Assembly (NCBI GenBank): GCA_007117355.1
Contig: SKGS01000226.1
Span: 1 to 33,699, forward strand
Source of the DNA: Lishizhenia sp.
GTDB lineage: Bacteria > Bacteroidota > Bacteroidia > Flavobacteriales_D > Crocinitomicaceae
Reading direction: 5' to 3'
DNA: 33,699 bases
Shown here: positions 6,883 to 29,680 of the stretch, piece after piece
Numbering within the stretch: the stretch's first letter is position 1
Layout of the letters: each line of letters starts with the position of its first letter
Made by a program: the position numbers and the translations under genes
Notes under the pieces: model-generated
Database searches by the model: none
What the model was told of the DNA's origin: nothing
Seen by the model: the letters and a program-made list of their open reading frames with translations, nothing else

Positions 6883-8136
6883 TTATTCTATAATCAATTT
6901 GTTTGTGCTTATACCTTGCGCAGTACGAATTTGTACTAAGTACATTCCACTTGGGAAGTCATAGTTATCAACAGTAACCTCTTGGTCAAGCAACTGCTCT
7001 TTTGTTGCCACAACCTGTCCATTCAATCCAATAATTGAATAAGCTTCAATTGGCTGGTCAGAAACAATTTTAAATGAACTGCTTGCAGGGTTTGGATACA
7101 TTGTAAAGTTTGGTTTTTCTACCTCATTTACAGAAAGTGTTTGGTCATAGAAACAATATTCTGCTTGATCACAAACAAAGTGTAAAAAGAAATTTGTTAC
7201 ATAATTGATTGTTGTATCTAAATAAGCTGCATTACCAACATGCGGAACATGATCTTGTCCAAAGAAAGGCTTAAAGCAATTTTGAAGTCCAATCTCATCT
7301 GCTTTTTGGTGAATAGAGAAACTACCCGATACTTCAATGATTTCAAAAATAGCCACAGAAATCATATCTGTAGCATATGGTACAGTTCCATCCTCATCGC
7401 CGTGTAAGCTTATTACAGGAGTATCATCTGCATTCATCCATTCTACATCACCTAAAGCACCCGCTAAATTTGCAATAGCTTTTAATTCAGTAGAAAAACC
7501 TGGATTACCACTATCTCCTTCAATTCCTCCTGTCAATCCTGGCTTTGAGAAATCAATAGACTCTGGAATTTCTGATTCTTCATCTAAATATGCATGATGT
7601 ACCGCCATAAATCCTCCAGCTGAGGAACCAACAACAAAGAAATTATCTGTGTCTAATTTATATGGGTTTCCGTCTTCTTCAATTGATTTTCTAAAGAAAC
7701 GAATAGCAGCTTTCAAATCTTGAGTAGCTCTAAATACTGCTTCTGAAGCATCTCCTTCACTTGGACCAGTTGGAGTTAATAGGTTGTCCATACCTAATCT
7801 GTAGTTAATAGATGCAGTAACATAACCTTTTTTAGCAAACTCTTGAGCCATTGGAACGACATCATCTCCAGTCTTACTACCAGCGATAAACGTACCACCG
7901 TGAGCAAAAATAATTAATGGTCTTTCTGATTCTGTATCGCCTTCTGGTTCATAAATATCAACTAATAAGTTAACATTGTTTCCATCTCGTCCTGTGTTGC
8001 TACCATACTGAACATCCGATGTCAAGTTGAAATTATCAAAAACAGGAAGTCTATATCTTCCTTCGGAGCAGTCCTGAGCTTGTGCTGTAAATAGCAAACC
8101 TACTGCTGCTAATCCTACTAAGTAAATTTTCTTCAT
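6883..8136 (-). CDS. T9SS-secreted alpha/beta hydrolase (esterase/lipase-like)
   Basis: Predicted secreted serine hydrolase of 417 aa. Residues 1-20 form a Sec signal peptide (cleavage after AQA). The catalytic domain (about 50-325) shows the oxyanion loop FAHGG (78-81), the nucleophile elbow GSSAGG with Ser172, the acid in HGDEDGTVPY (Asp249) and a His in GQDHVPH (296 or 299). This arrangement is typical of carboxylesterase/lipase-like enzymes. Residues about 344-417 are a type A T9SS sorting domain (FTMYPNPASS, SGMYLVQI, NKLIIE), so the protein should cross the outer membrane and be anchored or released. It lies 20 bases after a fadL-family gene on the same strand. Together they suggest extracellular hydrolysis of a lipid or ester followed by uptake of the hydrophobic product. 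The substrate is not known. Confidence 0.88.
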   Translation of the reverse strand: MKKIYLVGLAAVGLLFTAQAQDCSEGRYRLPVFDNFNLTSDVQYGSNTGRDGNNVNLLVDIYEPEGDTESERPLIIFAHGGTFIAGSKTGDDVVPMAQEFAKKGYVTASINYRLGMDNLLTPTGPSEGDASEAVFRATQDLKAAIRFFRKSIEEDGNPYKLDTDNFFVVGSSAGGFMAVHHAYLDEESEIPESIDFSKPGLTGGIEGDSGNPGFSTELKAIANLAGALGDVEWMNADDTPVISLHGDEDGTVPYATDMISVAIFEIIEVSGSFSIHQKADEIGLQNCFKPFFGQDHVPHVGNAAYLDTTINYVTNFFLHFVCDQAEYCFYDQTLSVNEVEKPNFTMYPNPASSSFKIVSDQPIEAYSIIGLNGQVVATKEQLLDQEVTVDNYDFPSGMYLVQIRTAQGISTNKLIIE

Positions 8137-8156: not shown

Positions 8157-9380
8157 TTAAAATTTATACGAAAACGACACACCTGGAATAAAAGCACGAG
8201 AAGACCAAACCCCAGCAAACTGAGTTTCTAGGTTGGTATCTGAACGCTCTCCTGGTGTTACAAACAAGAAAGAGGCATCTACTGTCAACTTCTTGTATGT
8301 GTAACTAGCACCTATGGAAACACCAATTTTATCCATGTCTGGTGTTTCAGGAGTCATAAATCCATCTTGAACTGGAGTGAAATCATAATATGTTCCTGCT
8401 CTTAGGGTTAACTTTTCATTAAGTTCATATTCTGCACCTAATCTTAAAATCACTACATTTCTATATTGTCTTGGAGAGTTAACATCTTCCAAATTATCCG
8501 TGTTTTGTTCGAAATCAAAAGACAACGTATCGTAACTGCTCCAAGCGACATAATTCATGTCTAAAGCTAAAGTTAATTTTGCTGAGGCTTTAATTCCTAT
8601 ACCTAAATTGAAAACGCTTGGTAAATTTAATTGAGTAGTAAAATTTGTTTCAGGGAAGTTTGCGTTCAATGCCGGCGGAACATCAAATCTAGCTTTACCT
8701 TCGTCAAGAGAAACACCGATTCCTGAGCGATAACTTGCACCAATAGAAATGTTTTCTGCAACATCATAAAGTACTCCAACGTTAAAGCCATGACCAATAC
8801 CAGCTCCACTTAAGTTTGCTTCACCGTATTCACCGTTATTTAATTGAAGCGGAACAGCTCTACGAAGAACAAAATCACCCGTTCCAAAAACATAACCCAA
8901 ACCTATTCCTAATCTTTCATTAACTTGATAAGCAACAGTTCCTTGATAAAAAATTGCACGTAATCCCATTTCGCGAAGTAAAAACTGTCCTTTCCAGTCA
9001 TCATCATAAGCTATACTACTTCCAAATGGAGTGTAAACGCCTAGTCCAAATACAAATGGAGAATCATCAGATAATTTAAAAGCTGCGTAACCATGAAAAG
9101 GCGTACCTATATCGTCAGTTTTTTGCGCTTGATAAATACCGGGTTCAAATTCACTATATCCGACATAAGCAGAAATTAAGTTAATCCCAATTAAGACCTC
9201 CGAACGTGAAAATGCCAGAGCACCAGGGTTGAAAAACCCACTTGCTGCACCAAGTCTTAAACCTGTACCTGTATGCCCCATACCGGCACTACGGTTACCT
9301 TGTAAGTTTACTTGAAAACCTCCAGCAACAACATTTAGAGAAAGTGCCAGACTAAAAAGGAAAGTAGTAATATGTTTCAC
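8157..9380 (-). CDS. FadL/OmpP1-family outer-membrane transporter
   Basis: Predicted 14-stranded outer-membrane channel for long-chain fatty acids or other hydrophobic compounds (OMPP1/FadL/TodX family), 407 aa, the usual size. A signal peptide (residues 1-19) is followed by the N-terminal hatch signature GGFQVNLQGNRSAGMGHTGT and GFFNPGALAFS. Alternating beta-barrel segments follow to the terminal aromatic residue (VSFSYKF). The start codon is GTG, chosen because it gives the signal peptide directly. It is the first gene of a two-gene unit with the T9SS-secreted hydrolase 20 bases downstream. The 159 bases upstream, to gldA, contain no promoter box that I can defend. Confidence 0.9.
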   Translation of the reverse strand: MKHITTFLFSLALSLNVVAGGFQVNLQGNRSAGMGHTGTGLRLGAASGFFNPGALAFSRSEVLIGINLISAYVGYSEFEPGIYQAQKTDDIGTPFHGYAAFKLSDDSPFVFGLGVYTPFGSSIAYDDDWKGQFLLREMGLRAIFYQGTVAYQVNERLGIGLGYVFGTGDFVLRRAVPLQLNNGEYGEANLSGAGIGHGFNVGVLYDVAENISIGASYRSGIGVSLDEGKARFDVPPALNANFPETNFTTQLNLPSVFNLGIGIKASAKLTLALDMNYVAWSSYDTLSFDFEQNTDNLEDVNSPRQYRNVVILRLGAEYELNEKLTLRAGTYYDFTPVQDGFMTPETPDMDKIGVSIGASYTYKKLTVDASFLFVTPGERSDTNLETQFAGVWSSRAFIPGVSFSYKF

Positions 9381-9539: not shown

Positions 9540-10442
9540 CTATCGAGTTAATTTTTTAAACACTTCTTCCAACGAATTTTCTTCTTTACGTAAGGATAGT
9601 ATCAACCAATTTTGTTTTTGCGCTGTTTGAGCTAATTCTTTTCTCAAATCTACATCCAAATTAGATTCAATAATAAATGAGGTTTCGTTTAGCTGTTTTA
9701 CTTTCTGAATAAATTTAAGACTTTTTAGGGTATCGCTTTTTAATGTAGATTCAAACTCAACAAAAACCACTTGAGTAAGACTATTTTCTTGCAAACTAGT
9801 AGCTTTATCATTAGCAACTATTGTTCCATTTTTAATAATAATCACACGCTCACAAATAGCTTCTACTTCTTGCATGATATGTGTGGAGAGCATTACTGTT
9901 TTTTCTTCACCTATCTTTTTTATCAACTGGCGAATATCTTCTAATTGATTAGGGTCTAATCCTGAAGTTGGCTCATCCAAAATTAAAACTTCAGGGTCAT
10001 GAATAATTGCTTGAGCCAATCCAACCCTTTGGCGGTATCCTTTTGAAAGCGCTCCGATTACTTTGTGTTGCTCTTTCATCAACCCAACTGTTTGAATCAT
10101 TTCGGCAACGCTTTCTTTTTTATTTGGAATTTTATAAATATCAGCGACAAAACCTAAGTATTCTTTAACATACATATCCAAATACAGTGGATTATGCTCA
10201 GGGAGGTATCCAATTTTCTTTCTGACTTCCATCGGATGTTGTTGGATATTCAACCCACAAACTTCAACCTCGCCCTCACTAGCAGGAATAAATCCTGTTA
10301 TTATTTTCATGGTAGTTGATTTACCTGCACCATTTGGTCCTAAGAATCCAACTACCTCTCCTTTTTTTGCCTTAAATGAAATATTATTGACTGCGGCTTG
10401 CTCTCCGTAATACTTAGATAAATGTTTTACTGATATAGACAT
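9540..10442 (-). CDS. gldA: GldA-type gliding-motility ABC transporter ATPase
   Basis: Cytoplasmic ATP-binding subunit of an ABC transporter; the 300-aa length and sequence match the GldA family, which in Flavobacterium is needed with GldF and GldG for gliding. Motifs: Walker A GPNGAGKST (35-43), Q-loop region YLPEHNPLY (79-87), signature LSKGYRQR (132-139), Walker B VLILDEPTSGLDP (152-164) and the switch His in STHIMQEVEAI. The C-terminal third (about 215-300) is the family-specific extension. No permease genes (gldF, gldG) are adjacent. It lies 78 bases after the PLD-like gene on the same strand with no evident terminator between, so read-through transcription is possible. A general drug-resistance-type ABC ATPase is the alternative reading. 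Confidence 0.88.
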   Translation of the reverse strand: MSISVKHLSKYYGEQAAVNNISFKAKKGEVVGFLGPNGAGKSTTMKIITGFIPASEGEVEVCGLNIQQHPMEVRKKIGYLPEHNPLYLDMYVKEYLGFVADIYKIPNKKESVAEMIQTVGLMKEQHKVIGALSKGYRQRVGLAQAIIHDPEVLILDEPTSGLDPNQLEDIRQLIKKIGEEKTVMLSTHIMQEVEAICERVIIIKNGTIVANDKATSLQENSLTQVVFVEFESTLKSDTLKSLKFIQKVKQLNETSFIIESNLDVDLRKELAQTAQKQNWLILSLRKEENSLEEVFKKLTR

Positions 10443-10520: not shown

Positions 10521-12431
10521 CTAATTAATCACTAAACGCTCCATTCTTGTGGAATTGGTAGAATGAACTAATACAGAATAGATGCCTTTCGATAAATCAG
10601 AAATAGAAATGGATTGACTTTGACTTATTGTTTTCCAAGAAGCATTTTTCACTACTTTTCCATCTAAAGAATAAATGATGATTTCTGAAATCCCCGCCTC
10701 CCAATCAACAGATATAGCTTCATTTGAAGGGTTGGGATATAATCGAAAATCGTCTTTTGAATCGGGACTCATTGTACTTAATGGATTATCTACTGTAAGT
10801 TGTAACCAAGCTTCATCGCAAAAATCAAAAAGCGTTTCATTACAAATTGCATACTTCAAAGAATCTAATCCAACATAACTATTTGGCGTGTAAAATACAC
10901 CTTCTTCATTAGCTGTTGCATTACCATTCTCCGGAGGAGTTACAATATGAAAAGTTGGTTTTATGGTGAAATAATAACTATCGTTTGCCCCAACTTCGAT
11001 TAGCATTTCTTCGGAACCAACCACTAACGCAGCATCATCATTTGCATTAAGCTGAGAAGCCATCGGGGTATAACGAGCCATAAATTCCTGATAATATTGA
11101 TTAGTAATTTTATCATTGAAAATGATTAATGTATTTTCATCATTTCGTTCCTCTGCACTAGCACTCCAATTGTGTGAACCTGTAAGTACAAAAGGATTAT
11201 TATTTGAAATAAAATTGGCAATCATTAATTTATGGTGCAAGGTGCCTGTGATGGAAGTATATTCTGCTAATCGACCATGAAGACTATTTTGCAATGATTC
11301 AAAAGTACTCGTTTGTGCCTCTGAATTAACTAATACCGCTACGTTAGAACCAGATGCATTTTTAAAATTTATTGCACTAGTAATGTCATTTCGCGTAATT
11401 AACATCGTATTTACCGCTAGTTCATCATTTGCGTCTTGAACCGCTTTCAAGATTCTTTGATTAGTGCCATCTGAAGGGCTAAAATAACACTCAACTCTGC
11501 TATCTCCAATTTGCAGAAAATGAGGTGTATCATCTTTTTTATCCTGTCCAAAACGTGAATTTTGGGAATTCGGCAATATACTGGATCCACCCCACATTTC
11601 TTCAAATTCCATGGTATAGACTTTTGCCAGTGACTGGTCTTGAATAATAATCACATTATTGGCATCCGTATTAATTTGTTGCGTAGTTAGATTCGTAGAA
11701 CCTGTCCAAACAAAAGGTTTATTGGGATTAGAACTATTTGCATCAAAGACGAAAAATTTATGATGCATCAAGCCTATTCCTTGAAAAAAATCAGCAGCCG
11801 GACTTTCTAATCTTGGGATATCAGGGTGAAGATTTTGAATACCTGTATTCCCTGTGTTTTCATTATAAATCACACGTACTTGAACACCATTTAAAAATGC
11901 CTGATTCAATGCTTCAATATAGTTTGCAACAGAACTAGAATTGGTGGTATTATAAACAGCTAAATCAATAGATTCTTCCGCTCTTTCAATATATTTCACC
12001 AAAGTATCGTCTATGGTATTGGGCAAATGAATAGCAGGGTTGGCAGGTGATGCATACGATAAATCTACTGGCTGATTAAAGTAAGCAAGCATATTTCCCG
12101 AAGACAAGGATTTGGTAATTCCTACAATGGTATCTGATTCTGAAATAGAGGAACCACTTTCTGAAATAAGCTGAAAATAAACCAATGAAGCAGGCTGCAA
12201 ACTTGGAATGGTTATCGAAGGCTGAGCTGTATTTCCTCCCGATAAAACACCTAGTTCCAATTGTGGAGTTAAACCATATTTAATAGACGAATTTGATGAA
12301 CTAGCATTTTCCCACGAAATGGTAATACTGTTTTCTTCAATCGTTACAAATTCTAGCGAGTTTTGAATGATTTGGCTGTATCCATGGCCTGTTAAAAAGG
12401 TTAGGACGATAAATAGTAGATAGTACTTCAT
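10521..12431 (-). CDS. T9SS-secreted phospholipase D-like (HKD) phosphodiesterase
   Basis: Predicted secreted phosphodiesterase of the PLD/Nuc superfamily, 636 aa from ATG 12431. Using numbering from an upstream GTG at 12446 (add 5): signal peptide ending GHGYSQ; a fibronectin-III-like domain (about 30-115, ITISW, SIKYG); two HKD half-domains with HHKFFVFD (H228, K230, D235) and HHKLMIAN (H404, K406, N411), each followed by TGSTNLT or TGSHNWS; a cadherin/Ig-like domain (about 490-560); and a T9SS sorting domain (FRLYPNPSNE, KGIYSVLV). The second motif has Asn where Asp is usual. ATG 12431 begins one base after the preceding gene's stop, so the two are translationally close; the GTG start would overlap by 14 bases. 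The substrate could be DNA, phospholipid or another phosphodiester; the neighbouring nuclease family favours nucleic acid. Confidence 0.85.
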   Translation of the reverse strand: MKYYLLFIVLTFLTGHGYSQIIQNSLEFVTIEENSITISWENASSSNSSIKYGLTPQLELGVLSGGNTAQPSITIPSLQPASLVYFQLISESGSSISESDTIVGITKSLSSGNMLAYFNQPVDLSYASPANPAIHLPNTIDDTLVKYIERAEESIDLAVYNTTNSSSVANYIEALNQAFLNGVQVRVIYNENTGNTGIQNLHPDIPRLESPAADFFQGIGLMHHKFFVFDANSSNPNKPFVWTGSTNLTTQQINTDANNVIIIQDQSLAKVYTMEFEEMWGGSSILPNSQNSRFGQDKKDDTPHFLQIGDSRVECYFSPSDGTNQRILKAVQDANDELAVNTMLITRNDITSAINFKNASGSNVAVLVNSEAQTSTFESLQNSLHGRLAEYTSITGTLHHKLMIANFISNNNPFVLTGSHNWSASAEERNDENTLIIFNDKITNQYYQEFMARYTPMASQLNANDDAALVVGSEEMLIEVGANDSYYFTIKPTFHIVTPPENGNATANEEGVFYTPNSYVGLDSLKYAICNETLFDFCDEAWLQLTVDNPLSTMSPDSKDDFRLYPNPSNEAISVDWEAGISEIIIYSLDGKVVKNASWKTISQSQSISISDLSKGIYSVLVHSTNSTRMERLVIN

Positions 12432-12432
12432 A

Positions 12433-13527
12433 TTATTTGACTTCACGAATTAAAAACAAATATACAGGAAAGTGGTCACTGTACCCTGCTAAATATTGTC
12501 CTCCAGCAAAACTTCTGAACGGATATCCTTTAAATCTACCATCAGCTTGTCTTAAAAATGGTTTATTGAATACAACTGCTTTGTAAAATTTGAATTGCTC
12601 ATCATATATCCCATTTTTAGAAACCAAGGGAGGAGTCAGCATAATTTGATCAAATAAATTCCACGAATCTCTCCATGCTAATGTTCCTATCCCTTTTTTG
12701 AAAAAATACTCAAATGGATTAAATACTGTTTCCTCAGTCATTTTTCGTTCTTTTCCTACTGAACGCATATTTTGCTTTACACTAGTACTTGTTGGATCAT
12801 CGTTTAAGTCTCCCATGAAAATCACTTTCGCATTTGGACCTTCTGCCTTTTGAATAGAATCAATTATTCCACGAGCAAGGTCGGCTGCTGCTTCTCTTAA
12901 CGGTGAACTTCTTTTTTCTCCACCTCTTCTACTTGGCCAGTGAGCCACAATGAAGTGAAAACGTTCACCTAATAAATCTCCTGAAACCAATAATTGATCA
13001 CGTGTGTAAAAATTGTCCATTCCTTCAATTTTCAAGGTGTAAGATTTACTACTTTCAACGGTATAATATTGGGGTAAATATATCAGTCCAACATCAACAC
13101 CTCTTTTATCAGGGGAGTCATAATGCACTATCTCGTACCCTCTACCTTTTAGACGCTCAGTATCTATAAGGTCTTGAATTACTTCTCTGTTTTCAATCTC
13201 AGCCAAACCTAATACAGCCATACCATCTGGAGTTTTTTCAGTACCAAGTTGCTCTATGACCTCAGATAATCGATCTAATTTTTCGTAATAACGTTGTGTT
13301 CCCCATAGATTTGATCCTTCGGGAGTATATTCCAAATCACGAACCCCAGGGGTATTTATTGTATCAAATAAGTTTTCTACATTATAGAATCCAATGCCCA
13401 CTAAAGTATAGTCTTTCCCTTTCTCTTGACCGATTACTTGAAATCCGACCAAAAACGATAAAGCAAAAACAAAGGTTTGCTTCGAAAAAAATTGTTTAAA
13501 ACTTATTAAGTAATTGTTAATTATCAT
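12433..13527 (-). CDS. Exported endonuclease/exonuclease/phosphatase-family enzyme
   Basis: Member of the EEP (DNase I-like) metal-dependent phosphodiesterase/phosphatase superfamily, 364 aa. The N-terminus carries a signal-type hydrophobic segment (TFVFALSFLVGFQVIGQ, about 18-34), so it is exported. Catalytic motifs in order: FYNVENLFD (Asn49), LAEIEN (Glu110), IVAHWPSR (His196), MGDLNDDP (Asp240, Asn242) and the C-terminal YSDHFPV (Asp351, His352). The family hydrolyses DNA, RNA, phospholipid or phosphorylated sugars; the full DNase I-like set of residues is present. It is the first gene of a unit with the PLD-like enzyme and diverges from the TonB-dependent-receptor operon across a 167-base region with a clear promoter. 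I infer a role in cutting extracellular nucleic acid. Confidence 0.87.
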   Translation of the reverse strand: MIINNYLISFKQFFSKQTFVFALSFLVGFQVIGQEKGKDYTLVGIGFYNVENLFDTINTPGVRDLEYTPEGSNLWGTQRYYEKLDRLSEVIEQLGTEKTPDGMAVLGLAEIENREVIQDLIDTERLKGRGYEIVHYDSPDKRGVDVGLIYLPQYYTVESSKSYTLKIEGMDNFYTRDQLLVSGDLLGERFHFIVAHWPSRRGGEKRSSPLREAAADLARGIIDSIQKAEGPNAKVIFMGDLNDDPTSTSVKQNMRSVGKERKMTEETVFNPFEYFFKKGIGTLAWRDSWNLFDQIMLTPPLVSKNGIYDEQFKFYKAVVFNKPFLRQADGRFKGYPFRSFAGGQYLAGYSDHFPVYLFLIREVK

Positions 13528-13608
13528 GTCTAATTTATATAATTATTGATTTTCAATATTTTAAAACATCATATAATATTCAAAGAATGAATTTTAACAG
13601 CGAAATTA

Positions 13609-13638
13609 CAAACTTAGTGCCGTTTTGTTATTATCAAA
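13609..13638 (-). promoter_or_regulatory. Bacteroidota sigma-A-type promoter of the EEP/PLD operon
   Basis: On the minus strand TTTG (plus 13635-13638) is followed after 18 bases by TAAGTTTG (plus 13609-13616), an exact match to TTTG-N18-TAnnTTTG. Transcription would start near 13603, giving a leader of roughly 75 bases to the ATG at 13527. Confidence 0.75.
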
Positions 13639-13682
13639 TCATTAATTCTTAAAAATGATTAAATTTTAACAATGAATTACTC

Positions 13683-13690
13683 TAAATTTG
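13683..13690 (+). promoter_or_regulatory. -7 box (TAAATTTG) abutting the TonB-dependent receptor start
   Basis: TAAATTTG followed by CAGC matches the Bacteroidota -7 element TAnnTTTG, but it ends only four bases before the ATG at 13695. If used, the message would be leaderless or nearly so. No TTG element is visible at 17-23 bases upstream, which lowers the confidence. Confidence 0.4.
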
Positions 13691-13694
13691 CAGC

Positions 13695-16232
13695 ATGCTT
13701 AAATGGATTAATACAACACTATTTTTCGCTTTTTTGAGTTTTGGCTGTCTTTACAGTCAATCTAAAAACGATTCAATCAAAGCGAAATCAGCTGCTGATT
13801 CTGCTGCACGAAATATAGAGAACCGAATTCCGGTTTTTAATATGGACTCAGAAGGAGATTCAGATTTTGGATCTCAGGATATTTCTGGACTTCTTCAATC
13901 CTCCCGAGATGTATTTACATCAACCGCTGGATTTAATTTTGGTCAAGCAAGATTCCGAATTAGAGGTTTAGGAACAGAAAATAAAACCGTTTTTATAAAT
14001 GGTATTCGATTAAATGACATGGAAACGGGTAGAGCCATTTGGTCTAGTTGGGGAGGTTTAAATGATGTTACGAGATACATGGATGTTCAAACCGGCGTTG
14101 TTGCCTCTCGTGAAAGTTTTACAGGATTGATGGGATATAGTAGTATAAATGCTAGAGCTTCATCGTTACGACCTGGGACAAAAGTTTCTTACGCAGGTAC
14201 AAATAGAGCTTATAACCATCGATTCATGGTGACTCATGCAACAGGGAAAAGAAAAGATGGTTGGTCTTTTGCAGCTTCTGCTTCCAGAAGATATGCTGGA
14301 GAAGGGTATGTTGAAGGAACTTTTTTCGATGCATGGGCTTACTATTTAGCAGCTGAAAAAGAAATCAATAAAAAGCATACGATTAATGCGCTTGTGTTTG
14401 GAGCACCAATTATCCAAGGAAGACAAGGAATGGCTGTTCAAGAAGCGATGGATTTGGCTGGAACAAACTATTACAACCCTGATTGGGGATTTCAAAATGG
14501 TGTTAAACGAAACGCTAGGGTAAGTAATTTTCACAAACCAACGGCAATGATTAATCATTACTTTAATATTAATGAAACAACTCAACTTACTTCTAGTATT
14601 TTTTTCCAAGGGGGAAGAGGTGGCGTAACGCGTTTGAATTGGCATGAATCCGCTGATCCAAGACCGGCATTTTACAGATACTTGCCCTCGTTTTTTGAAG
14701 AAGGATCTTCTGATTACCTAGCTACAAAACAAGCTTGGGAAAATGATGTAAACAGAAGACAAATTAGCTGGGATGATTTTTACCATGCGAACAGAAAAAA
14801 TCTTTTCACTGCTGAAAATGTTAACGGTATTCCTGGAAATAATGTTACTGGAATGCGGTCTAAGTATATGTTAGAAGAAACACGCTACGATCATATTCAG
14901 TATGGAGCAAACACCGTTTTAGAGAAAAAATTATCACCGAAAACCGTTTGGACTACGGGCTATAATCTTACCATATATAAAGGGAATGTTTACAGTCAAG
15001 TTGCTGATTTATTAGGAGGAGACTTTTGGCTTGATATTGACCAATTTGCAGAACGAGACCTGAACGATGAAGCGATGGCAATCAATGACCTTAATAATCC
15101 AAATGCATTGATTGGGGTTGGTGATCGTTATTGGTTCGATTATATCAATAATATTGACAGACAAGAATTATTTACCCAAATTGAACATGATTTTGGTAAA
15201 TTTGAAGTATTTGCGGCGGCAAACTACACTTGGACACAGTTTTGGAGAACAGGAAATATGCAAAATGCGCGTTTCCCAGACAATTCTTATGGTGATTCTG
15301 AAAAACAAACCTTTCACAATTACGGTTTTAAAGGTGGCTTAACATATAAAATTTCTGGTCGTCAGTATATCACAACAAATCTAGCTTATATGACAAGAGC
15401 TCCATTTATGAGAAATGCTTATGTTTCTCCTAGAACAAGAGATGATTTAGTTCCAAATTTAGAATCAGAAGAATTATTAAGCGGCGATATTAATTATTTT
15501 CTGCGCTACCCAAAATTAAAAATGAGAGCATCACTTTATTACGCTCAAGTGAACAACCAAACATGGATGCGCAGTTTTTACCATGATGAATACCGAACAT
15601 TTGTAAATTATTCCATGACTGGAGTTGATAATTTGTTCACTGGTGTTGAATTTGGAGCAGAATGGAATGCAACATCGACTATTTCAATAAATGGCGTTTT
15701 TGCACATGGACAAAGTATTTATAATTCTCGCCCTACAGCAACAATAGCAAGAGACAATGATTCAGAATTAATAGCTGAAAATAGAACAGTTTACTTGCAG
15801 GATTTTAGATTGGGTGGTATGCCACAAACAGCGGCTTCTTTAGGTGTTCGATACAACTCTCCCAAATATTGGTTTATTGGAGCTTCAGCTAACTTTTTCG
15901 ACCATATTTATTTAGATCCTAATCCAGATAGAAGAACCGAAGAAGCGCTTTCTAGCTACGTAACAACAGATCCACAATGGAGAGAAATCATCGAACAAAC
16001 GAGATTAGACGCCAACTTAACCATTGATATTTATGGTGGAAAATCATGGAGAATTAAAAAGAAGTTCCTGAACTTCAATGCAAGTATTAGCAATGTTCTA
16101 AATAATCAAAACTTTCGAATTGGAGGATTTGAACAATTACGTTATACACCAGCAGATATTAATCGTTTTCCGCCTATGTATTCTTACTTATTCGGATTTA
16201 CATTTTTTGCTATGGTTAGTTTATCACTTTAA
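13695..16232 (+). CDS. TonB-dependent outer-membrane receptor
   Basis: Predicted TonB-dependent active transporter in the outer membrane, 845 aa. A signal peptide (1-21, ending GCLYSQ) is followed by a short linker rich in Ala, Asp and Ser. The plug domain comes next (about 58-160: DISGLLQSSRDVF, FRIRGLGTENKTVFINGIRLN), then a long beta-barrel ending in the strand LFGFTFFAMVSLSL. Unlike SusC-type receptors there is no N-terminal carboxypeptidase-like domain before the plug. No SusD gene follows; instead a DUF5689 lipoprotein starts 8 bases downstream and a T9SS-secreted protein after that, all on one strand and evidently one operon. I infer that it imports a product generated by the divergently encoded phosphodiesterases, such as oligonucleotides or nucleosides. 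Its substrate cannot be read from sequence. Confidence 0.88.
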   Translation: MLKWINTTLFFAFLSFGCLYSQSKNDSIKAKSAADSAARNIENRIPVFNMDSEGDSDFGSQDISGLLQSSRDVFTSTAGFNFGQARFRIRGLGTENKTVFINGIRLNDMETGRAIWSSWGGLNDVTRYMDVQTGVVASRESFTGLMGYSSINARASSLRPGTKVSYAGTNRAYNHRFMVTHATGKRKDGWSFAASASRRYAGEGYVEGTFFDAWAYYLAAEKEINKKHTINALVFGAPIIQGRQGMAVQEAMDLAGTNYYNPDWGFQNGVKRNARVSNFHKPTAMINHYFNINETTQLTSSIFFQGGRGGVTRLNWHESADPRPAFYRYLPSFFEEGSSDYLATKQAWENDVNRRQISWDDFYHANRKNLFTAENVNGIPGNNVTGMRSKYMLEETRYDHIQYGANTVLEKKLSPKTVWTTGYNLTIYKGNVYSQVADLLGGDFWLDIDQFAERDLNDEAMAINDLNNPNALIGVGDRYWFDYINNIDRQELFTQIEHDFGKFEVFAAANYTWTQFWRTGNMQNARFPDNSYGDSEKQTFHNYGFKGGLTYKISGRQYITTNLAYMTRAPFMRNAYVSPRTRDDLVPNLESEELLSGDINYFLRYPKLKMRASLYYAQVNNQTWMRSFYHDEYRTFVNYSMTGVDNLFTGVEFGAEWNATSTISINGVFAHGQSIYNSRPTATIARDNDSELIAENRTVYLQDFRLGGMPQTAASLGVRYNSPKYWFIGASANFFDHIYLDPNPDRRTEEALSSYVTTDPQWREIIEQTRLDANLTIDIYGGKSWRIKKKFLNFNASISNVLNNQNFRIGGFEQLRYTPADINRFPPMYSYLFGFTFFAMVSLSL

Positions 16233-16240
16233 ATAATTTT

Positions 16241-17518
16241 ATGAAACCAATATTTTATCTTTCGGCACTATTAACAGCATCATTACTTCTAATCGTTTCT
16301 TGTAAAAAATTGGAATATGATGAACCACCAATCAAAGACATACCGGTTGGTAATATTTTAACCATTCAAGAATTAAGGGATTTATTCGAAGGAGAGTCGG
16401 TTCGTTTTGACGAAGATTATTCCGTATATGCTACAGTTACCATGGATGATAGAAATGGTAATATTTTCCGAAATGCCTATCTTCAAGACGAAACCAATGC
16501 TATTGTAATCAGAACTAACTTTCCCGGAGGTTTATACCAAGGAGACTCTGTAAGATTGTACCTTAAAGGAACCGTTTTAGGTTCGTTTAATGGTTTATTA
16601 CAAGTTGATTCTGTCGATGTCAATAAAAATATCATCAAGCAAGCAACAAAGAAAAACATTAACCCTAGAGTGGTTACTATTGAAGAATTAATTACCCAAG
16701 ATTTGCAATCGCAATTGGTTCAACTTAACAATGTAGAGTTTGAGGCTTCTGCTTTAGGTTTAACATACGCAAATGCGGCGAATCAACAATCGCAAAACAG
16801 AACGTTGACGGATTGTGATGGAAATACAATTATTGTTAGAACGAGTGGATTTGCGAATTTTGCCAATGAAACCGTTGCAGATAAAAATGGAACTTTGATT
16901 GCCATCGCCAATGAGTTTAACGGTACTAAACAGCTTTTAATTCGAGATACGGAGGAGTTATCGATGTTTAATGAAAGATGCACAGGCGGAGGTAGTACAC
17001 CAGAAGACGCATACTTGTTCAAAGATTTTTCAGACCAAAGTATTACATCTGGAGGTTGGAATAGTTATGTAGTTCAGAGTTCTCCTGGTAGTCATAATTG
17101 GACAACTTCCAGTCAAGGTTCTCCGGGAAATTATTATGCCGTTGCTACTGGTTGGACAGGGTCTTCAGCTGATGAAACAGACTTATGGTTAATTTCACCA
17201 CCTTTTGATTTAAGTCAAGCGCAAGCACCTCAACTTTCGTTTAGATCCTCAACTCGATTTAACGGTCCAGCTTTAAAGTTAATGGTTTCCACTGACTATG
17301 ATGGTGTGAGTAATCCAACTACACAGGGTACTTGGACAGACTACTCTTCATTTGTTACTTGGTCGCCTGGAGATTTTCAATGGACAAATTCTGGTGTGAT
17401 ACCCATGTTGGCATTTTTAAGTCAGCAAAATGTTTATATTGCTTTTAGATACACAAGCGGAGATGCAGCTGGAGCTGCAACTTGGCAAGTGGACGACATT
17501 ATTATAAATGAAAATTAA
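16241..17518 (+). CDS. DUF5689-type surface lipoprotein with choice-of-anchor-J-like domain
   Basis: A 425-aa lipoprotein with lipobox LIVSCKK (Cys21). Residues about 40-250 resemble DUF5689, an OB-fold-like module found in Bacteroidota (SVYATVTMDDRNGNIFRNAY, LYQGDSVRLYLKGTVLG, LVQLNNVEF). Residues about 258-425 form a choice-of-anchor-J-like (jelly-roll) domain with DLWLISPPFDLS and STDYDGVSNP, ending in WQVDDIIINEN. This last domain is clearly related to the three repeats of the next gene. It sits 8 bases after the TonB-dependent receptor, the place occupied by SusD in SusCD pairs. It may therefore be the substrate-binding surface partner of the receptor (inference). An OB-fold would suit a nucleic-acid ligand but does not prove one. 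Confidence 0.8.
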   Translation: MKPIFYLSALLTASLLLIVSCKKLEYDEPPIKDIPVGNILTIQELRDLFEGESVRFDEDYSVYATVTMDDRNGNIFRNAYLQDETNAIVIRTNFPGGLYQGDSVRLYLKGTVLGSFNGLLQVDSVDVNKNIIKQATKKNINPRVVTIEELITQDLQSQLVQLNNVEFEASALGLTYANAANQQSQNRTLTDCDGNTIIVRTSGFANFANETVADKNGTLIAIANEFNGTKQLLIRDTEELSMFNERCTGGGSTPEDAYLFKDFSDQSITSGGWNSYVVQSSPGSHNWTTSSQGSPGNYYAVATGWTGSSADETDLWLISPPFDLSQAQAPQLSFRSSTRFNGPALKLMVSTDYDGVSNPTTQGTWTDYSSFVTWSPGDFQWTNSGVIPMLAFLSQQNVYIAFRYTSGDAAGAATWQVDDIIINEN

Positions 17519-17528
17519 TAGTTAAATT

Positions 17529-20027
17529 ATGAATACAAAAATCACAAATTCGTTCTCCATTTTCGTAATGATATGTTTGAGCGCTTTCGCTTATGGTCAA
17601 ACCTATTTTTCTGAAAATTTTGAGGGAAGTTCTTTGACTTCGAACAACGAATGGACAGTTTTCAACGTTGTTCCTTCAACAAGTAACCTGAGCTGGTTTC
17701 ATGATACCAATCAAAATCCGGGTAGAGCAAGAGTTTCTAATTACATCAATGCTACACAAAGCAATGAAGCTTTAGAGTCTTGGTTAATTACATCCAACAT
17801 TGATCTATCAGGTGCTTCTTCTCCTGTCTTTACTTTCGAAAATACTAAACGTTTTGCAGGAGATGATATTCAGCTATTGATTTCAACAAACTATGACGGT
17901 TCATCTGATCCATCCGATGCTCAATTTTCTTGGGAGGATATCACAGATGAAGCTAATTTCGACAACAACGTTGGCTCATGGAACATGGTAAGTTCGGATG
18001 AAGTCGATCTTTCAGATTTTTCTGGACAATCGATTTACATTGCTTTTAAATATGTTGGTTCGGATAGTGATGGAAGCACCTACCAAATTGACAATATTTT
18101 GTTAGAAGAAGATGATGAAGATGCGAATCCTAACCCTGGAACACCCGAATGTGCCATAGGTATTTTCTGCGATGATTTTGACGGGAACTCTCTAACTTCA
18201 AATAATGCTTGGACAGTATTTAATGTTGTAGAATCTGCAAATAACTTTACATGGACACATAGCATAAATCAGGGTAATGGTCGAGCAAGAATCAGCAATT
18301 ATTTGAATACAACTGAAACCAATGACGCAATGGAATCTTGGTTGATTAGTCCTGCAATAAGTTTAGAAGATGTAAGTTCTCCTATTCTTACTTTCGAAAA
18401 TACAAAGCGATTTGAAGGTGACGATATTCAGCTTTTAGTTTCAACAAACTACGACGGTTCGTCCAACCCGACAGATGCGGAATTTTCTTGGGAGAACTTA
18501 ACCAATGAAGCTAATTTTGATAGTGATATAAGTTCATGGAATATGATTCCTTCTGCAAATATTGATTTATCTGATTTCAGCGATGAAACAATTTACATCG
18601 CTTTCAAATATGTAGGTTCAGATAGTGATGGAAGCACCTACCAAATTGATAACATTTTATTAGAAGACAATGAAGATCCAACTGACCCAGATCCTGTTAC
18701 GCCAGAATGTGCCATAGGTATTTTCTGCGATGATTTCCAAGGAAATTCATTAACAGCAAATAATCCTTGGATTATCGTTAGTACCGTTCCATCTCCAAAT
18801 AATTTATCGTGGTTCCACAATGTATTTAGCGGTGAAGGTTCAGCTCAAATATCTAATTACATTTCAAGTTCGCAAACTAATCAAGTGCTTGAAAGTTGGT
18901 TAATCACTCCATCATTAAATCTAACTGATTACCCAGAGGTTGAATTCTCATTCGATCATACTAAACGTTTTGCAGGTGATGATTTAGAATTATTAATCTC
19001 AACAGATTACGATGGCTCAAATGATCCAACTTCTGCTACTTGGACAAATATTACCAACTTAGCAAATATGGATAACAACGTTGGCAGTTGGAACTTGATA
19101 AGCTCAGGTCAAATCAATATTTCCTCTATAGCTGGCGGTGAAGCAACTGTTTACATTGCCTTCAAATATACTGGAGGTGCAACAAGTGGTTCTACTTACC
19201 GTATTGATAACGTTCTCGTTAGAGAGGCTGAGCCAATAAGCACCGTTTCAATTTATGATATACAATTCACGACAGACCCAAGTGGTGACTCACCTTTAGA
19301 CGGTGAAGTTGTAACTACCTCTGGTATTGTTACGGCTGTTGGCGATGGCTTCTACTTTATTCAGGATGGTGTTGGTGCTTGGAATGGAATTGAAATATTT
19401 AACAATACCAATAATCCAAGCTTAGGAGATTCTGTTGTTGTTACAGGAACAGTAAAAGAATACTTTGGATTTACACAAATTGAGTTTATTACTAGTTTTC
19501 AGGTTATTACTAGTGGAAATAATCTACCAGAAGCTTTTGTAATTAGCACAGGTGATATGTCGGAAATGTATGAAGGGGTATTAATTCAAGCAAAAGAAGC
19601 TTTTTGCACTAATAATAATGCTGGTTTCTCTATGTGGGAAATAAATAATGGTACTGGTCCTCTTTTGGTGGACGATAAAATGTTTCTTTTTTCTGCAACA
19701 CAAAATACACAATACGATGTAACAGGAATCGGGAATTTCGCATTTGGAACTCATAGAATTTCACCTCGATTTGCTTCTGATGTTACGGAAACAGTTTCTG
19801 TTAAAGACGCTGTTAAATCTAAGGTTTCACTTTACCCGAATCCAGTTTCAGAAAAACTAAATGTTAAAGGATTAAACGAAGGGACTATCGAAATTATTGA
19901 TGTATTAGGTAAAACACACCTTGTTTTCGAATATCAAGGCGAAGGATTTCTTCCAGTTAATGAATTGGAAAGAGGTGCATATATCCTAAAGTCTTCACAA
20001 GGAATGTTTAAGTTTATTAAGGAGTAG
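17529..20027 (+). CDS. T9SS-secreted protein with three J-like repeats and an OB-fold-like module
   Basis: An 832-aa secreted protein, third gene of the receptor operon (10-base gap). A signal peptide (1-23, SAFAYGQ) is followed by three repeats of about 186 residues (about 25-197, 208-383, 394-565). Each has a core ESWLI, TKRFAGDD(I/L), STNYDGSSDP and YQIDN(I/V)L pattern typical of choice-of-anchor-J/cleaved-adhesin jelly rolls. Repeats 2 and 3 begin with the same CAIGIFCDDF segment (Cys208 and Cys394). Residues about 575-755 look like a YhcR/DUF5689-type OB-fold (GEVVTTSGIVTAVGDGFYFI, GDSVVVTGTVKEYFGF). Residues about 765-832 are a T9SS sorting domain (VSLYPNPVSE, RGAYILKS). No catalytic motif is seen, so it is more likely a binding or adhesive protein than an enzyme. 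Confidence 0.82.
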   Translation: MNTKITNSFSIFVMICLSAFAYGQTYFSENFEGSSLTSNNEWTVFNVVPSTSNLSWFHDTNQNPGRARVSNYINATQSNEALESWLITSNIDLSGASSPVFTFENTKRFAGDDIQLLISTNYDGSSDPSDAQFSWEDITDEANFDNNVGSWNMVSSDEVDLSDFSGQSIYIAFKYVGSDSDGSTYQIDNILLEEDDEDANPNPGTPECAIGIFCDDFDGNSLTSNNAWTVFNVVESANNFTWTHSINQGNGRARISNYLNTTETNDAMESWLISPAISLEDVSSPILTFENTKRFEGDDIQLLVSTNYDGSSNPTDAEFSWENLTNEANFDSDISSWNMIPSANIDLSDFSDETIYIAFKYVGSDSDGSTYQIDNILLEDNEDPTDPDPVTPECAIGIFCDDFQGNSLTANNPWIIVSTVPSPNNLSWFHNVFSGEGSAQISNYISSSQTNQVLESWLITPSLNLTDYPEVEFSFDHTKRFAGDDLELLISTDYDGSNDPTSATWTNITNLANMDNNVGSWNLISSGQINISSIAGGEATVYIAFKYTGGATSGSTYRIDNVLVREAEPISTVSIYDIQFTTDPSGDSPLDGEVVTTSGIVTAVGDGFYFIQDGVGAWNGIEIFNNTNNPSLGDSVVVTGTVKEYFGFTQIEFITSFQVITSGNNLPEAFVISTGDMSEMYEGVLIQAKEAFCTNNNAGFSMWEINNGTGPLLVDDKMFLFSATQNTQYDVTGIGNFAFGTHRISPRFASDVTETVSVKDAVKSKVSLYPNPVSEKLNVKGLNEGTIEIIDVLGKTHLVFEYQGEGFLPVNELERGAYILKSSQGMFKFIKE
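18063..18736. repeat. Direct DNA repeats with a 558-bp period inside the J-repeat gene
   Basis: A 29-base stretch at 18063-18091 recurs exactly at 18621-18649, and a 32-base stretch at 18147-18178 recurs exactly at 18705-18736. Both pairs are 558 bases (186 codons) apart, matching one protein repeat. Nucleotide identity, including third positions, points to recent duplication or gene conversion between repeats. Confidence 0.9.
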
Positions 20028-20304: not shown

Positions 20305-20378
20305 GGCCTCGTAGCTCAACTGAATAGAGTACTTGATTACGGCTCAAGAGGTTCCAGGTTTGAATCCTGGCGAGGTCA
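20305..20378 (+). tRNA. tRNA-Arg (anticodon ACG)
   Basis: A full cloverleaf of 74 bases: acceptor GGCCTCG/CGAGGTC (one G-U) with discriminator A; D-stem GCTC/GAGT; anticodon stem CTTGA/TCAAG with loop TTACGGC, so the anticodon is ACG at 20339-20341 (Arg, CGU; A34 would be edited to inosine by TadA). The variable region is AGGTT and the T-stem CCAGG/CCTGG with loop TTTGAAT. CCA is not encoded. Oddities: the D-loop reads CTGAATA, giving A instead of G at position 19, and the T-loop has T instead of C at position 56. The near-universal G19-C56 tertiary pair is thus replaced by a matching A19-U56 pair. It stands alone with its own promoter and terminator. Confidence 0.95.
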
Positions 20379-20387
20379 CGAAATAAG

Positions 20388-20455: not shown

Positions 20456-21856
20456 TTACATGTCCTGTATATAATCAGGTCTTGGAATATCATCGTTATC
20501 TATATCAAGTACAAACTCAGATTTTAATTCTCCAGTATTCCAATCGATGAATGCCCATAATCCATTTTTTTTGACTAGCAAATATGGATTGCGCAATCCG
20601 CTAAATTGAACAATTCGGTAATCATCATATAAGCAAGGAATACTTTGCCTCCCTTTTTCAAAAGACCATGGAGGTAAATAGATTCCAACTTTTCCACCTT
20701 TGTAAACTCCTGTCAAAAGTTCATTTTTATAAAAATCAATAGAATCATATTCAAATGGAATAATAATATCTATTTCGTTTGGTTCTAATACCATAACCAT
20801 TCCCCATTTTTGTGACTTTTTATTTCTTGCCAACATCACTCCATCCTCATTATAATGGTCTGAAATCAATAAATCTGCTTTTAAGGTCTTTTTAATTTGA
20901 TTTTCACGCTCAATTTCCTGTTTCGACATATAAGTTAGAGGGACTTCATCAGCTGTTTCATAAATAAAATCATGAATCACGGAAGTTTCTTTGAAATCTA
21001 ACATGCCCCATTTACCATCTTTTTTAGCAATCATCACCTGATGTTCACCAAAATCACCATTTACACAAGTTACTTTTAATTTTTGATATTCCGGTTTATA
21101 CAAATTAAATTGATCATCATTTATATAAAGGTCACTTATCCCCCAAAGATTGGTTTTTGGGTCTTTGATTTGAGCGTAAGTCGTAGAATTTAAACATAAA
21201 TAAGGTACTCCATCTATCTCTTCTTTGTAAGTAACTTCCATAGGAATTACCAAATCAGACTTTAGTTTATTTCTAGCTAATAATAATTGTTCTAAGTCGT
21301 AATTTGAAACGTATAACTTTGGAAGATCTGAAAGGCTTGCGTATTCTAGTGGTAAAATGGTGTTATGAGCCCAAATATCAATAATCCCCCATTTACCAGC
21401 TTTCTTAGCGAATAAATATTCGCTCCTATAATCCCCATCATATTCAAAAGGTTTATGATGAATTATTATTTCATCGTATTCATAGTGTACTTTTGATAAA
21501 TCAATCGTCGTGTTTTCTTCCAGTTTGATAGATTTGGAATATTTGTTATTTTTTTTAAATACAACGATAGATTCATATGCGTCATAAGAAAAATAAAACA
21601 AAATACTATCGAACTCCATGGGAGTGACTTCTATTAACTTTAATTCATCATCATAATTTAGTCGAAATAACCCCCACTTGCCAGTTTTACTATTTTTGAT
21701 GCTTACATGTAAGAGGTCTGAAACTTCTCCGTAGGTGTATTCTGTTCCATGAACAGTATTTAATAATTCCGGAGTAAGTTCTTCTTGAGCTGATAACTTA
21801 GCACTGAATAAAAGTGTTAATGTTAAATTAACTAAGAGTAAAATCGAATTTTTCAT
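20456..21856 (-). CDS. Exported WG-repeat protein
   Basis: A 466-aa protein with an N-terminal signal peptide (1-23, SAKLSAQ) and a series of WG (KWG) beta-repeat units. Clear copies are KTGKWGLF (Trp61), KAGKWGIID (Trp156), KTNLWGISD (Trp238), KDGKWGMLD (Trp283) and KSQKWGMVM (Trp351). Degenerate copies follow (KGGKVGIY, KNGLWAFID). WG-repeat proteins in Bacteroidota are usually secreted or periplasmic and mostly of unknown function, perhaps in protein binding. No lipobox and no T9SS sorting domain are visible. It converges on the tRNA-Arg unit and lies 180 bases from the S9 peptidase gene. The 180-base gap holds no convincing promoter. Confidence 0.8.
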   Translation of the reverse strand: MKNSILLLVNLTLTLLFSAKLSAQEELTPELLNTVHGTEYTYGEVSDLLHVSIKNSKTGKWGLFRLNYDDELKLIEVTPMEFDSILFYFSYDAYESIVVFKKNNKYSKSIKLEENTTIDLSKVHYEYDEIIIHHKPFEYDGDYRSEYLFAKKAGKWGIIDIWAHNTILPLEYASLSDLPKLYVSNYDLEQLLLARNKLKSDLVIPMEVTYKEEIDGVPYLCLNSTTYAQIKDPKTNLWGISDLYINDDQFNLYKPEYQKLKVTCVNGDFGEHQVMIAKKDGKWGMLDFKETSVIHDFIYETADEVPLTYMSKQEIERENQIKKTLKADLLISDHYNEDGVMLARNKKSQKWGMVMVLEPNEIDIIIPFEYDSIDFYKNELLTGVYKGGKVGIYLPPWSFEKGRQSIPCLYDDYRIVQFSGLRNPYLLVKKNGLWAFIDWNTGELKSEFVLDIDNDDIPRPDYIQDM

Positions 21857-22036: not shown

Positions 22037-24070
22037 TTACTTAGTTAATGTTTCATCAAGCCATTTGTAAAATTCACGTTGCCAAAGTAAAGCATTTTGT
22101 GGCTGTAAAATCCAGTGATTTTCATCTGGAAAATATAACAACCGACTTTTAATGCCTTTTATTTTAGCCGCTTGAAAAGCTTCCAAACCTTGCGTGTCTG
22201 GAACTCGGTAATCTTTACCACCATGAATAACAAGAATTGGAGTGTCCCAATTTGCTACGAGATGATGAGGGCTGTTGTTTTCATAAATGGTTTTATTTTC
22301 CTCCTTCCAATATGGTCCACCAAGTTCCCAGTTTGCAAAAAACAACTCCTCTGTTGAGCCATACCAGGAAGTCATATTGAATAATCCACAATGTGAAATA
22401 AAGGAACTAAATCTACCTTCATGCATTCCTGCCAGGTAATAAACAGAAAAACCACCGTAGGAGGCACCAACAGCTCCGATTCGATTGGCATCAATATATT
22501 TTTCCTTTTTCACTTCATCAACAGCAGCAATATAGTCGCGCATTGGTTGTCCTCCCCAATCTTTGGAAATGGCGTCATTCCATTCTTGACCAAAACCGGG
22601 TAATCCTCTTCTATTAGGAGCAATCACGACATAACCTTGCTCAGCCATTAAGCGGAAATTCCAACGATAAGAGAAAAATTGACTAACTGCACTTTGAGGC
22701 CCTCCTTGACAGTAAAGTAATGAAGGGTATTTTTTACTTTCATCAAAGTTTGGCGGTAGAATAACCCAAGTCAACATTTTCTTATTGTCCGAAGTTGTAA
22801 TCCATCTTTTTTCAACCGTCGGTTTCGGTAAGTCATCTAGTAAATCTTCATTAACATCAGTTAATTGCTCCGCTTCACCTTTTTTACGTGAAATACTAAA
22901 TAAATCAGTAGGTACAAGCATTGATTGTCGGGTGGCGTAAATTTCTTTTGCTCCAATACTTAGGCTGTTGTAATTAAAAATGCCATCCGTTAGTTGTTCA
23001 TATTTTCGTTTTTTCAAGTCGTATTCAAATACTTGGTATGTTGCATTTGTTACCGCAATAAAGTAAATAGTTTTACTATCAGGTGACCATGAAAAAGAAC
23101 TCACTGTTAAATCTATTTCTTCTGTTAAATTAATATCTTCTTTTGACTTCAAGTCTCTGATAATAATATCATTTTTGTCTGATTCGAATCCATCTCTTTT
23201 CATGCTCAACCAAGAAAAATATTCGCCATTTGGAGAAAAAGTTGGATGTGTGTCATATCCTATATATCCTTTTGTCCAATTTTCTGTCGTTCCTTTTGGG
23301 ATGTGGTAAGCATAAATTTCAGAATTAGTAGAAGTGGCAAAATCATTACCATTCATCTTTTTCGTGGCATACAACACATATTCTTCGTCAGTGGAAAAAG
23401 TTATTTCTTCCATACCAGAAAAAGGTGGCATGACAGCATCGAAAGGTTCATTTAGAATAAGGTTTTTACCGTTTTCGGAAATATTTCCATCACTAACACC
23501 ATATAAGAAAAGCTGCGTGTTATATTCATCCTTCCAAGTATCCCAATGTCTATACATTAAGTCGTCACTAATAATGGCATTCGCCTTAGGTAAATCTGAA
23601 TATTGCTCTTGCAAGGTTGGTCTTGTTTTTACTCGTTGAAGGGCAACTAAATAATTTTCTTTTGGTGAAAATTTATAATCAAGTGTGGTCTTTGGTAAAA
23701 CGCCATGAACTTTTCTGTCTCCTCCAAAAACATTGACAGAAGCAATCTCTACTTCGTTTTCTTTTCGTTCTGTAAATGCTATCCGATAGTTAGACATCCA
23801 TCTTGGTTGGCTAATTTTTAAAAATGGAGAGTTTAACTGGAAAGTCTTTTTTGCTTTTGTATCGTAAATAAAAATATCTGTACTACCTTTTTCCTTTTCA
23901 ACGTCAATACTAGTCACTTTATAAAGCACATAATTTTCATTTGGGCTAAGAATACCTCCGGAAAGTCGTTTTAATTTCCATAATAATTCTGGTGTAAATG
24001 AGCTTGTTTGACTATTTACTAATAAAACAGAAATCAAACAAAGGACTAAGACTAACGACAGTTTTTTCAT
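22037..24070 (-). CDS. S9-family prolyl oligopeptidase-type serine peptidase, exported
   Basis: Predicted periplasmic or secreted peptidase of the acylaminoacyl-peptidase/dipeptidyl-peptidase branch of family S9, 677 aa. From ATG 24070 the protein begins with a good signal peptide (MKKLSLVLVLCLISVLLVNS). An upstream in-frame ATG at 24181 would add 37 basic residues and bury the signal, so it is rejected. Residues about 30-400 form the beta-propeller (FTPELLWKLKRLSGG, FSPNGEYFSWLS, WSPDSKTIYFIA). The catalytic domain (about 420-677) has YCQGGPQ, GASYGG with Ser537, HGGKDYRVP with Asp620 and DENHWI with His652. It probably cleaves short peptides. It lies downstream of tspO on the same strand, separated by an octamer repeat array. 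Confidence 0.92.
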   Translation of the reverse strand: MKKLSLVLVLCLISVLLVNSQTSSFTPELLWKLKRLSGGILSPNENYVLYKVTSIDVEKEKGSTDIFIYDTKAKKTFQLNSPFLKISQPRWMSNYRIAFTERKENEVEIASVNVFGGDRKVHGVLPKTTLDYKFSPKENYLVALQRVKTRPTLQEQYSDLPKANAIISDDLMYRHWDTWKDEYNTQLFLYGVSDGNISENGKNLILNEPFDAVMPPFSGMEEITFSTDEEYVLYATKKMNGNDFATSTNSEIYAYHIPKGTTENWTKGYIGYDTHPTFSPNGEYFSWLSMKRDGFESDKNDIIIRDLKSKEDINLTEEIDLTVSSFSWSPDSKTIYFIAVTNATYQVFEYDLKKRKYEQLTDGIFNYNSLSIGAKEIYATRQSMLVPTDLFSISRKKGEAEQLTDVNEDLLDDLPKPTVEKRWITTSDNKKMLTWVILPPNFDESKKYPSLLYCQGGPQSAVSQFFSYRWNFRLMAEQGYVVIAPNRRGLPGFGQEWNDAISKDWGGQPMRDYIAAVDEVKKEKYIDANRIGAVGASYGGFSVYYLAGMHEGRFSSFISHCGLFNMTSWYGSTEELFFANWELGGPYWKEENKTIYENNSPHHLVANWDTPILVIHGGKDYRVPDTQGLEAFQAAKIKGIKSRLLYFPDENHWILQPQNALLWQREFYKWLDETLTK

Positions 24071-24180
24071 TGTTTTAGATTTTTCGTGTGAAGATAACAA
24101 TTCTCTTTTGCTTTTTGAATGCGTTTTGTAAAAGATTTTTTCGGACAGGCTTCGCATTAGGATACCTAACCGTCTAATCA

Positions 24181-29676: not shown

Positions 29677-29680
29677 ATGA

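Follow-up and report, generated by a model that had tools for sequence, protein, structure and literature searches.

A divergent locus of a TonB-dependent receptor, a DUF5689 lipoprotein and secreted enzymes as a candidate nucleic-acid import system of Bacteroidia

Closest described systems and the layout of the locus

The locus described here bears on how DNA enters pilus-less Bacteroidota through the outer membrane, and our search of the literature (preprints aside) found no TonB-dependent DNA importer in this phylum beyond the work on Riemerella anatipestifer. In this species, the receptor-like protein RA0C_RS04915 and the DUF5689/DUF5017 protein RA0C_RS04920 are essential for natural transformation, clean deletions yielding no transformants, and RA0C_RS04910 figures in the same study merely as an unaffected neighbor (PMC8459023). 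Transformation is lowered in tonB mutants, including one with no iron defect, and is affected by two TonB proteins (PMC8383284); it falls, rather than rises, without phosphate. Flavobacterium johnsoniae encodes homologs of the proteins, yet proved non-competent in the conditions that were tried (PMC8459023, PMC7965970). The receptor/DUF5689 pair has been in the literature since 2021, as has its wide occurrence in Flavobacteriaceae, and we found no literature naming DUF5689 beyond PMC8459023. Several other systems share parts of this organization. In SusCD polysaccharide utilization loci (PULs), a TonB-dependent transporter precedes a surface lipoprotein, and genes for secreted enzymes are close by. 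The phosphate utilization systems (Pus) of Flavobacterium are PUL-like, combine phosphodiesterases with a TonB-dependent transporter and use SusD-like partners; neither DUF5689 nor PF19580 is named in the text of that work (PMC8115612). NucT, a PLD nuclease of Helicobacter pylori, has a role in purine salvage and transformation (PMC5714352), and the extracellular DNase ExeM/NucH holds an OB-type module and an EEP domain in a single chain (NF033681).

The window analyzed here, a 33,699-nt stretch from Lishizhenia sp. (Crocinitomicaceae), is one contig (C228) of a 3.09-Mb assembly of 280 contigs. Five open reading frames and a shared divergent region of 167 bases, described earlier in a first-pass annotation, were all recovered in place. 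On the minus strand, a PLD gene (10521–12446) encodes an accessory nuclease candidate secreted by the T9SS, in which two HKD/PLD domains (PLDc_2 in two stretches, E=4e-35) are joined to a T9SS type A sorting tail (Por_Secre_tail; residues 569–640, 10527–10742, by profile search). This gene is preceded by the core EEP gene (12433–13527), whose product is a predicted exported nuclease/phosphatase of the Exo_endo_phos_3 family (PF19580, E=6e-119). On the plus strand, the core receptor gene (13695–16232) encodes a TonB-dependent transporter with plug and barrel (Plug profile; AlphaFold2), followed by the core gene (16241–17518) of a lipoprotein that joins a DUF5689 domain (residues 38–238, 16352–16954; E=1e-47, Pfam/NCBIfam) to an anchor-J or MAM-like jelly roll (residues 259–422, 17015–17506). 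This protein has a lipobox-like N-terminus and is the presumed surface partner of the receptor. The last gene (17529–20027) encodes a T9SS-secreted protein, hereafter J/OB, with three anchor-J domains (Pfam/NCBIfam), an OB module (residues 592–697, 19302–19619; NF033681, hmmsearch and HHalign) and a type A sorting tail (residues 768–826, 19830–20006). These matches bear out the domain content given in the first-pass annotation: an exported EEP-family enzyme and a T9SS-secreted HKD protein, facing a TonB-dependent receptor, a DUF5689 lipoprotein and a T9SS protein with an OB-fold-like module.

The EEP and PLD reading frames overlap by 14 nt and the plus-strand genes are spaced by 8 and 10 nt, which fits two operons read away from the control region between EEP and receptor (13528–13694, 167 bp, 20% GC). 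On its EEP side lies a Bacteroidetes-type promoter match, a match to the consensus alone (13637–13609, TTG-N18-TAAGTTTG), and on its plus side just a TAAATTTG box 4 nt ahead of the ATG. The PLD gene is adjoined by gldA, encoding the gliding-motility ABC transporter ATPase (9540–10442), and further out a T9SS-secreted esterase-like protein (BD-FAE, 6883–8136) stands beside a FadL/TodX-type outer-membrane protein (8157–9380). A tRNA-Arg gene (acg, 20305–20379) lies directly downstream of the locus, followed by genes for a WG-repeat protein with a signal-like N-terminus (20456–21856) and, at 24736–25638, a Histone-deacetylase-family protein.

The Riemerella counterpart and conservation across Bacteroidia

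An R. anatipestifer genome (G668, 2,164,087 bp) with exact matches to both comEC qPCR primers of PMC8383284 displays the order RecA, four genes, ComEC, two genes, and then an EEP gene divergent to a receptor and a DUF5689 gene. Because this order fits the tag steps RS04870, 04895, 04910, 04915 and 04920, we identify the locus as RS04910-04915-04920; judged by sequence, an EEP enzyme is encoded upstream of the essential receptor. The receptors of window and R. anatipestifer are 31% identical over their whole length (E=2e-133) and reciprocal best matches, with the next match in the window's genome at E=1e-4. The EEP enzymes share 38% identity (E=7e-82), and the DUF5689 protein is 27% identical to RS04920 (E=2e-25); its match to NF052645 reaches 150 bits, under the 475 cut-off of that narrower subfamily. 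In a receptor tree, both receptors group together in an EEP-linked clade with support of 0.95, to which the sister receptors described below do not belong. Three features of the R. anatipestifer type are present in the window, namely a reciprocal-best receptor, a DUF5689-anchor-J lipoprotein directly downstream and a divergent EEP gene, in the same order, and as far as sequence can tell the window core (EEP, receptor, DUF5689) is orthologous to RA0C_RS04910-04915-04920. Unlike its counterpart, the window receptor lacks a CarboxypepD_reg domain, and the window locus adds the J/OB and PLD genes; comEC and recA lie near the R. anatipestifer locus, but not near that of the window. In R. anatipestifer, comEC is two genes away from the EEP gene, itself divergent to the essential pair (L200, 10405–12213 and 14433–15626; L201, 2898–7134). 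The comEC-EEP order also occurs in two more genomes of that genus (L205, L213) and was absent from the other Weeksellaceae loci fetched.

A conserved gene order among relatives had been proposed as a check on the locus. Receptors at least 40% identical to that of the window were found in 43 of 245 genomes of the order, the window's own counted; neighborhoods were fetched, their ORFs clustered, and loci for adjacency counts picked by receptor alone. A divergent EEP gene is the upstream neighbor of the receptor in 35 of 36 order relatives, and DUF5689 lies directly downstream of it in all 37 of 37. A second sample comprised 80 named loci from another collection, covering Bacteroidales, Saprospiraceae, Chitinophagaceae and Flavobacteriales, and here the divergent EEP gene was found upstream in 53/75 and DUF5689 downstream in 71/77. 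Among class-wide loci picked by DUF5689, EEP is adjacent in 31 of 39. The gap between EEP and receptor has a median of 139 bp (67 loci). Since the window's own genome contains just two PF19580 genes in all, chance adjacency is negligible, and a chance neighborhood is rejected by the conservation of the divergent EEP gene in both samples. The core order, EEP divergent to receptor and DUF5689, is therefore kept across Bacteroidia, but the PLD gene, part of the order as proposed, is sporadic and accessory: PLD was found clustered in just 14 of 101 loci, for the most part fused to OB and in about half of these cases in the sister locus, and PLD was rejected as a core gene. The J/OB gene is found in most order relatives too. 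The closest receptor relative (75%) belongs to a Crocinitomicaceae MAG, and Crocinitomix algicola falls into the same family group.

Sister loci, exchanged nucleases and protein structure

Many relatives without the window receptor type harbor a sister receptor of about 910–1050 aa, with approximately 27–33% identity in the aligned region. In place of EEP or DUF5689 genes, the next gene codes for a T9SS protein in which a DUF5689/OB region is joined to either Endonuclease I or a pair of PLD domains. Upstream there is often a T9SS protein with an LTD domain, and in many cases a split 5′-nucleotidase (C-terminal domain, then metallophosphatase domain) is found downstream. The short DUF5689 lipoprotein and a sister-type fusion (730–800 aa) occur together in none of the 55 genomes scanned for DUF5689, a scan that returned an additional protein of 2255 aa in one genome (G166). 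In several genomes, the same prolyl-oligopeptidase and citrate-synthase genes (clusters c9 and c14) adjoin both receptor types, which suggests one chromosomal position for the two types; their relationship looks like replacement in place at a single site. The window's own prolyl-oligopeptidase (S9) gene, a member of the cluster found beside both receptor types, is located at 22037–24181.

In the PLD fusions, the OB region can be aligned to that of the window J/OB protein (HHalign 98.7%, E=4e-16; hmmsearch E=3e-16), and the OB module is common to 43 of 48 J/OB proteins. Three unrelated nuclease folds (EEP, PLD and Endonuclease I) share one module and one genomic place, which argues for a nucleic-acid substrate, and we regard this apparent swapping of nucleases as the strongest sequence evidence for it. 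Split 5′-nucleotidases stand beside 27 loci in all and flank EEP-type loci too. In the nearest relative of the window, the receptor is divergent to an EEP-PLD pair, with the nucleotidase pair next in line; the window's own genome has its nucleotidase gene elsewhere, away from the locus.

Phosphatases and phospholipases are known among proteins of the EEP and HKD folds. The complete set of EEP motifs (NVENLF, EIENRE, AHWPS, GDLND, SDHFP) is found in the window enzyme. In the PLD protein the first HKD motif, HHKFFVFD, is intact and the second, HHKLMIAN, has N for D (11168–11240), and inspection for HxKx4D...GSxN, the pattern of the PLD endonuclease subfamily of Nuc, NucT and Zucchini, gave the same result, with copy one intact and N for D in copy two. 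Unlike the window copy, all relatives in the PLD cluster keep both D residues; the D to N change may have weakened the second half. The closest solved relatives of the PLD protein are Zucchini and endonuclease Nuc (1byr), and its match to the NucT model is weak, far under the NucT cut-off. With NucT it probably has in common the HKD nuclease subfamily and extracytoplasmic DNA handling, whereas two HKD domains per chain and T9SS secretion set it apart. The ExeM/NucH model (NF033681) matches residues 599–700 of the J/OB protein (E=2e-7), but the window scores of 21.5 and 30.5 against this family are far under its cut-off of 300, and OB module and EEP are encoded by two divergent genes rather than in a single OB+EEP chain, which was not found in the window. 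For the EEP, receptor, DUF5689 and J/OB proteins, no solved relatives were found by sequence.

The AlphaFold2 model of the receptor (pLDDT 86) adopts a classical TonB transporter fold, with PqqU, Fiu, FecA and FhuA as best fold matches. The first-pass annotation had likened the locus to a PUL, with DUF5689 standing in for SusD, and a SusCD-type pair was not upheld: the receptor fold is FecA/FhuA/PqqU-like, and the partner contains an anchor-J/MAM-like jelly roll instead of SusD. SusC is absent from the best 50 fold matches of the receptor, an absence that by itself proves nothing. The locus shares with SusCD PULs the succession of TonB-dependent transporter and surface lipoprotein with secreted enzymes alongside, but a true SusCD locus is rejected on the composition of the partner (DUF5689 plus anchor J by Pfam/NCBIfam, no SusD domain), and the five genes comprise no glycan-active enzymes by the same profiles. 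Likewise, phosphodiesterases beside a TonB-dependent transporter are an idea common to the Pus loci, whose SusD-like partner is missing here. The same window contains a true SusD/SusC pair (28096–32692; SusD_RagB, and CarboxypepD_reg with plug and barrel), in contrast to the receptor of the locus. In the DUF5689 protein (AlphaFold2 pLDDT 92), the C-terminal jelly roll resembles 8jiy (VIA Z=18.1, rmsd 2.5, 165 residues) and the gingipain adhesin 4itc (VIA Z 15.6). Foldseek matches of this protein were filled by the J domain, with Teb1 (3u58; tandem OB, ssDNA-binding) at rank 29 (E=2e-5). Of the two OB-fold proteins proposed earlier, J/OB thus contains its module, and the OB assignment for the DUF5689 half is a weak lead.

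DNA capture and import and the alternatives

Collectively, we consider it probable, at roughly 60%, that the locus is an outer-membrane system for the capture and import of nucleic acid, most likely DNA. In its most likely form, TonB would drive the import of DNA across the outer membrane and the surface nucleases would be interchangeable, with the system serving transformation, feeding or both; we infer passage of DNA through the receptor, action of EEP and PLD on DNA, and surface binding by the OB/J proteins. The DUF5689 lipoprotein and the secreted J/OB protein would keep extracellular DNA on the cell surface, where EEP, and here PLD as well, would nick or shorten it. Powered by TonB, the receptor would then draw DNA or large fragments into the periplasm. 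From there, DNA could enter ComEC and recombination, or nucleotidases could break it down into phosphate and nucleosides. Against an importer count the acidity of the surface OB/J proteins (pI 4.0–4.4), the resemblance of the J domains to carbohydrate-binding and adhesin folds, the missing ComEC of the host MAG (see below) and the non-competence of F. johnsoniae despite its homologs. To our knowledge, there is no solved precedent for a TonB-dependent transporter carrying long DNA, and the loss of transformation in the deletion mutants could be indirect.

The locus had initially been read as a PUL-like system for nucleic acid. Nuclease swapping, 5′-nucleotidases and orthology to transformation genes strongly support the nucleic-acid part of that proposal; its nutritional side is half borne out, with use as food unproven and loss of transformation as the single phenotype on record for homologous genes. 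It is nevertheless conceivable, although unlikely, that the system is purely nutritional, with nucleases cutting DNA or RNA outside the cell, the receptor importing oligonucleotides or nucleotides, nucleotidases freeing phosphate and nucleosides, and transformation in Riemerella being a later use or an indirect effect. Such a role would fit the 27 loci adjoined by split 5′-nucleotidases and the second EEP enzymes present in 17, and secreted nucleases would damage transforming DNA. Moreover, Bacteroidota consume DNA in sediments (PMC8289736), and Flavobacterium has PUL-like loci of phosphate starvation as well as induced EndA nucleases that contain LTD and Endonuclease I domains (PMC8115612). 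It is at odds with the failure of R. anatipestifer receptor or DUF5689 deletions to yield transformants (PMC8459023) and with the drop of transformation without phosphate. ComEC (PF03772) was not found in the host MAG (G000, 280 contigs), in which DprA is present, and this keeps a purely nutritional role in play. However, a search of 68 other genomes, most of which carry the locus, found ComEC in 63, the nearest relative (G051) among them. Given this and the fragmented assembly, we place little weight on the missing gene, which is probably an assembly gap.

Another phosphodiester or glycan substrate, such as a phospholipid, a teichoic-acid-like polymer, inositol phosphate or a J-bound polysaccharide, with the enzymes acting as phosphatases or phospholipases, is improbable. 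It draws on the presence of such activities within the EEP and HKD folds (PMC5714352), on an EEP enzyme without solved relative by sequence, and on J domains that match carbohydrate-binding modules. It conflicts with the dedicated nuclease family Endonuclease I filling the same place in the sister locus, with the match of OB module and EEP each to the ExeM/NucH nuclease model, with a PLD protein closest to nucleases and with the transformation phenotype of the R. anatipestifer deletions; in addition, neither lipase nor glycoside hydrolase was seen as a recurrent core neighbor among the clustered neighborhoods. Surface defense or matrix remodeling, in which secreted nucleases remove extracellular DNA of traps or biofilm while the receptor, unconnected with them, transports iron or a vitamin, could appeal to the PQQ, siderophore and citrate transporters as closest receptor folds and to a T9SS-secreted nuclease that is an R. 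anatipestifer virulence factor (PMC10202324), but is highly improbable in view of the class-wide linkage of receptor, DUF5689 and nuclease, the fusion of DUF5689/OB modules to nucleases and the loss of transformation in receptor mutants.

As a wider and more tentative form of the DNA-importer reading, which we rate somewhat short of an even chance, the locus may represent an ancestral, Bacteroidia-wide TonB-driven gate for whole DNA that replaces the competence pilus, with EEP, PLD and Endonuclease I interchangeable around a shared OB module, and that serves feeding as well as transformation. There is a fair chance that Bacteroidia rely chiefly on this gate for DNA entry through the outer membrane. 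As far as our literature search went, the fixed divergent EEP gene, the class-wide range, the sister OB-nuclease fusions, the 5′-nucleotidase linkage and the common place of both receptor types have not been described before; a receptor and DUF5689 pair known from one duck pathogen is the core of a class-wide locus with fixed and swappable nucleases. If DNA import is confirmed, DNA scavenging and gene transfer would be joined in very common bacteria of water, soil and gut, and the cargo of a TonB-dependent transporter would be a polymer far larger than those known. DUF5689, a widespread unknown family, gains a testable role. The NCBIfam family named after R. anatipestifer M949_1556 is represented in the R. 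anatipestifer genome by one gene only, the DUF5689 gene of the locus, and by inference this ties the DUF5689 protein to the literature on M949_1556, which, according to a title cited in PMC12566107, has been studied for antigenicity and pathogenicity.
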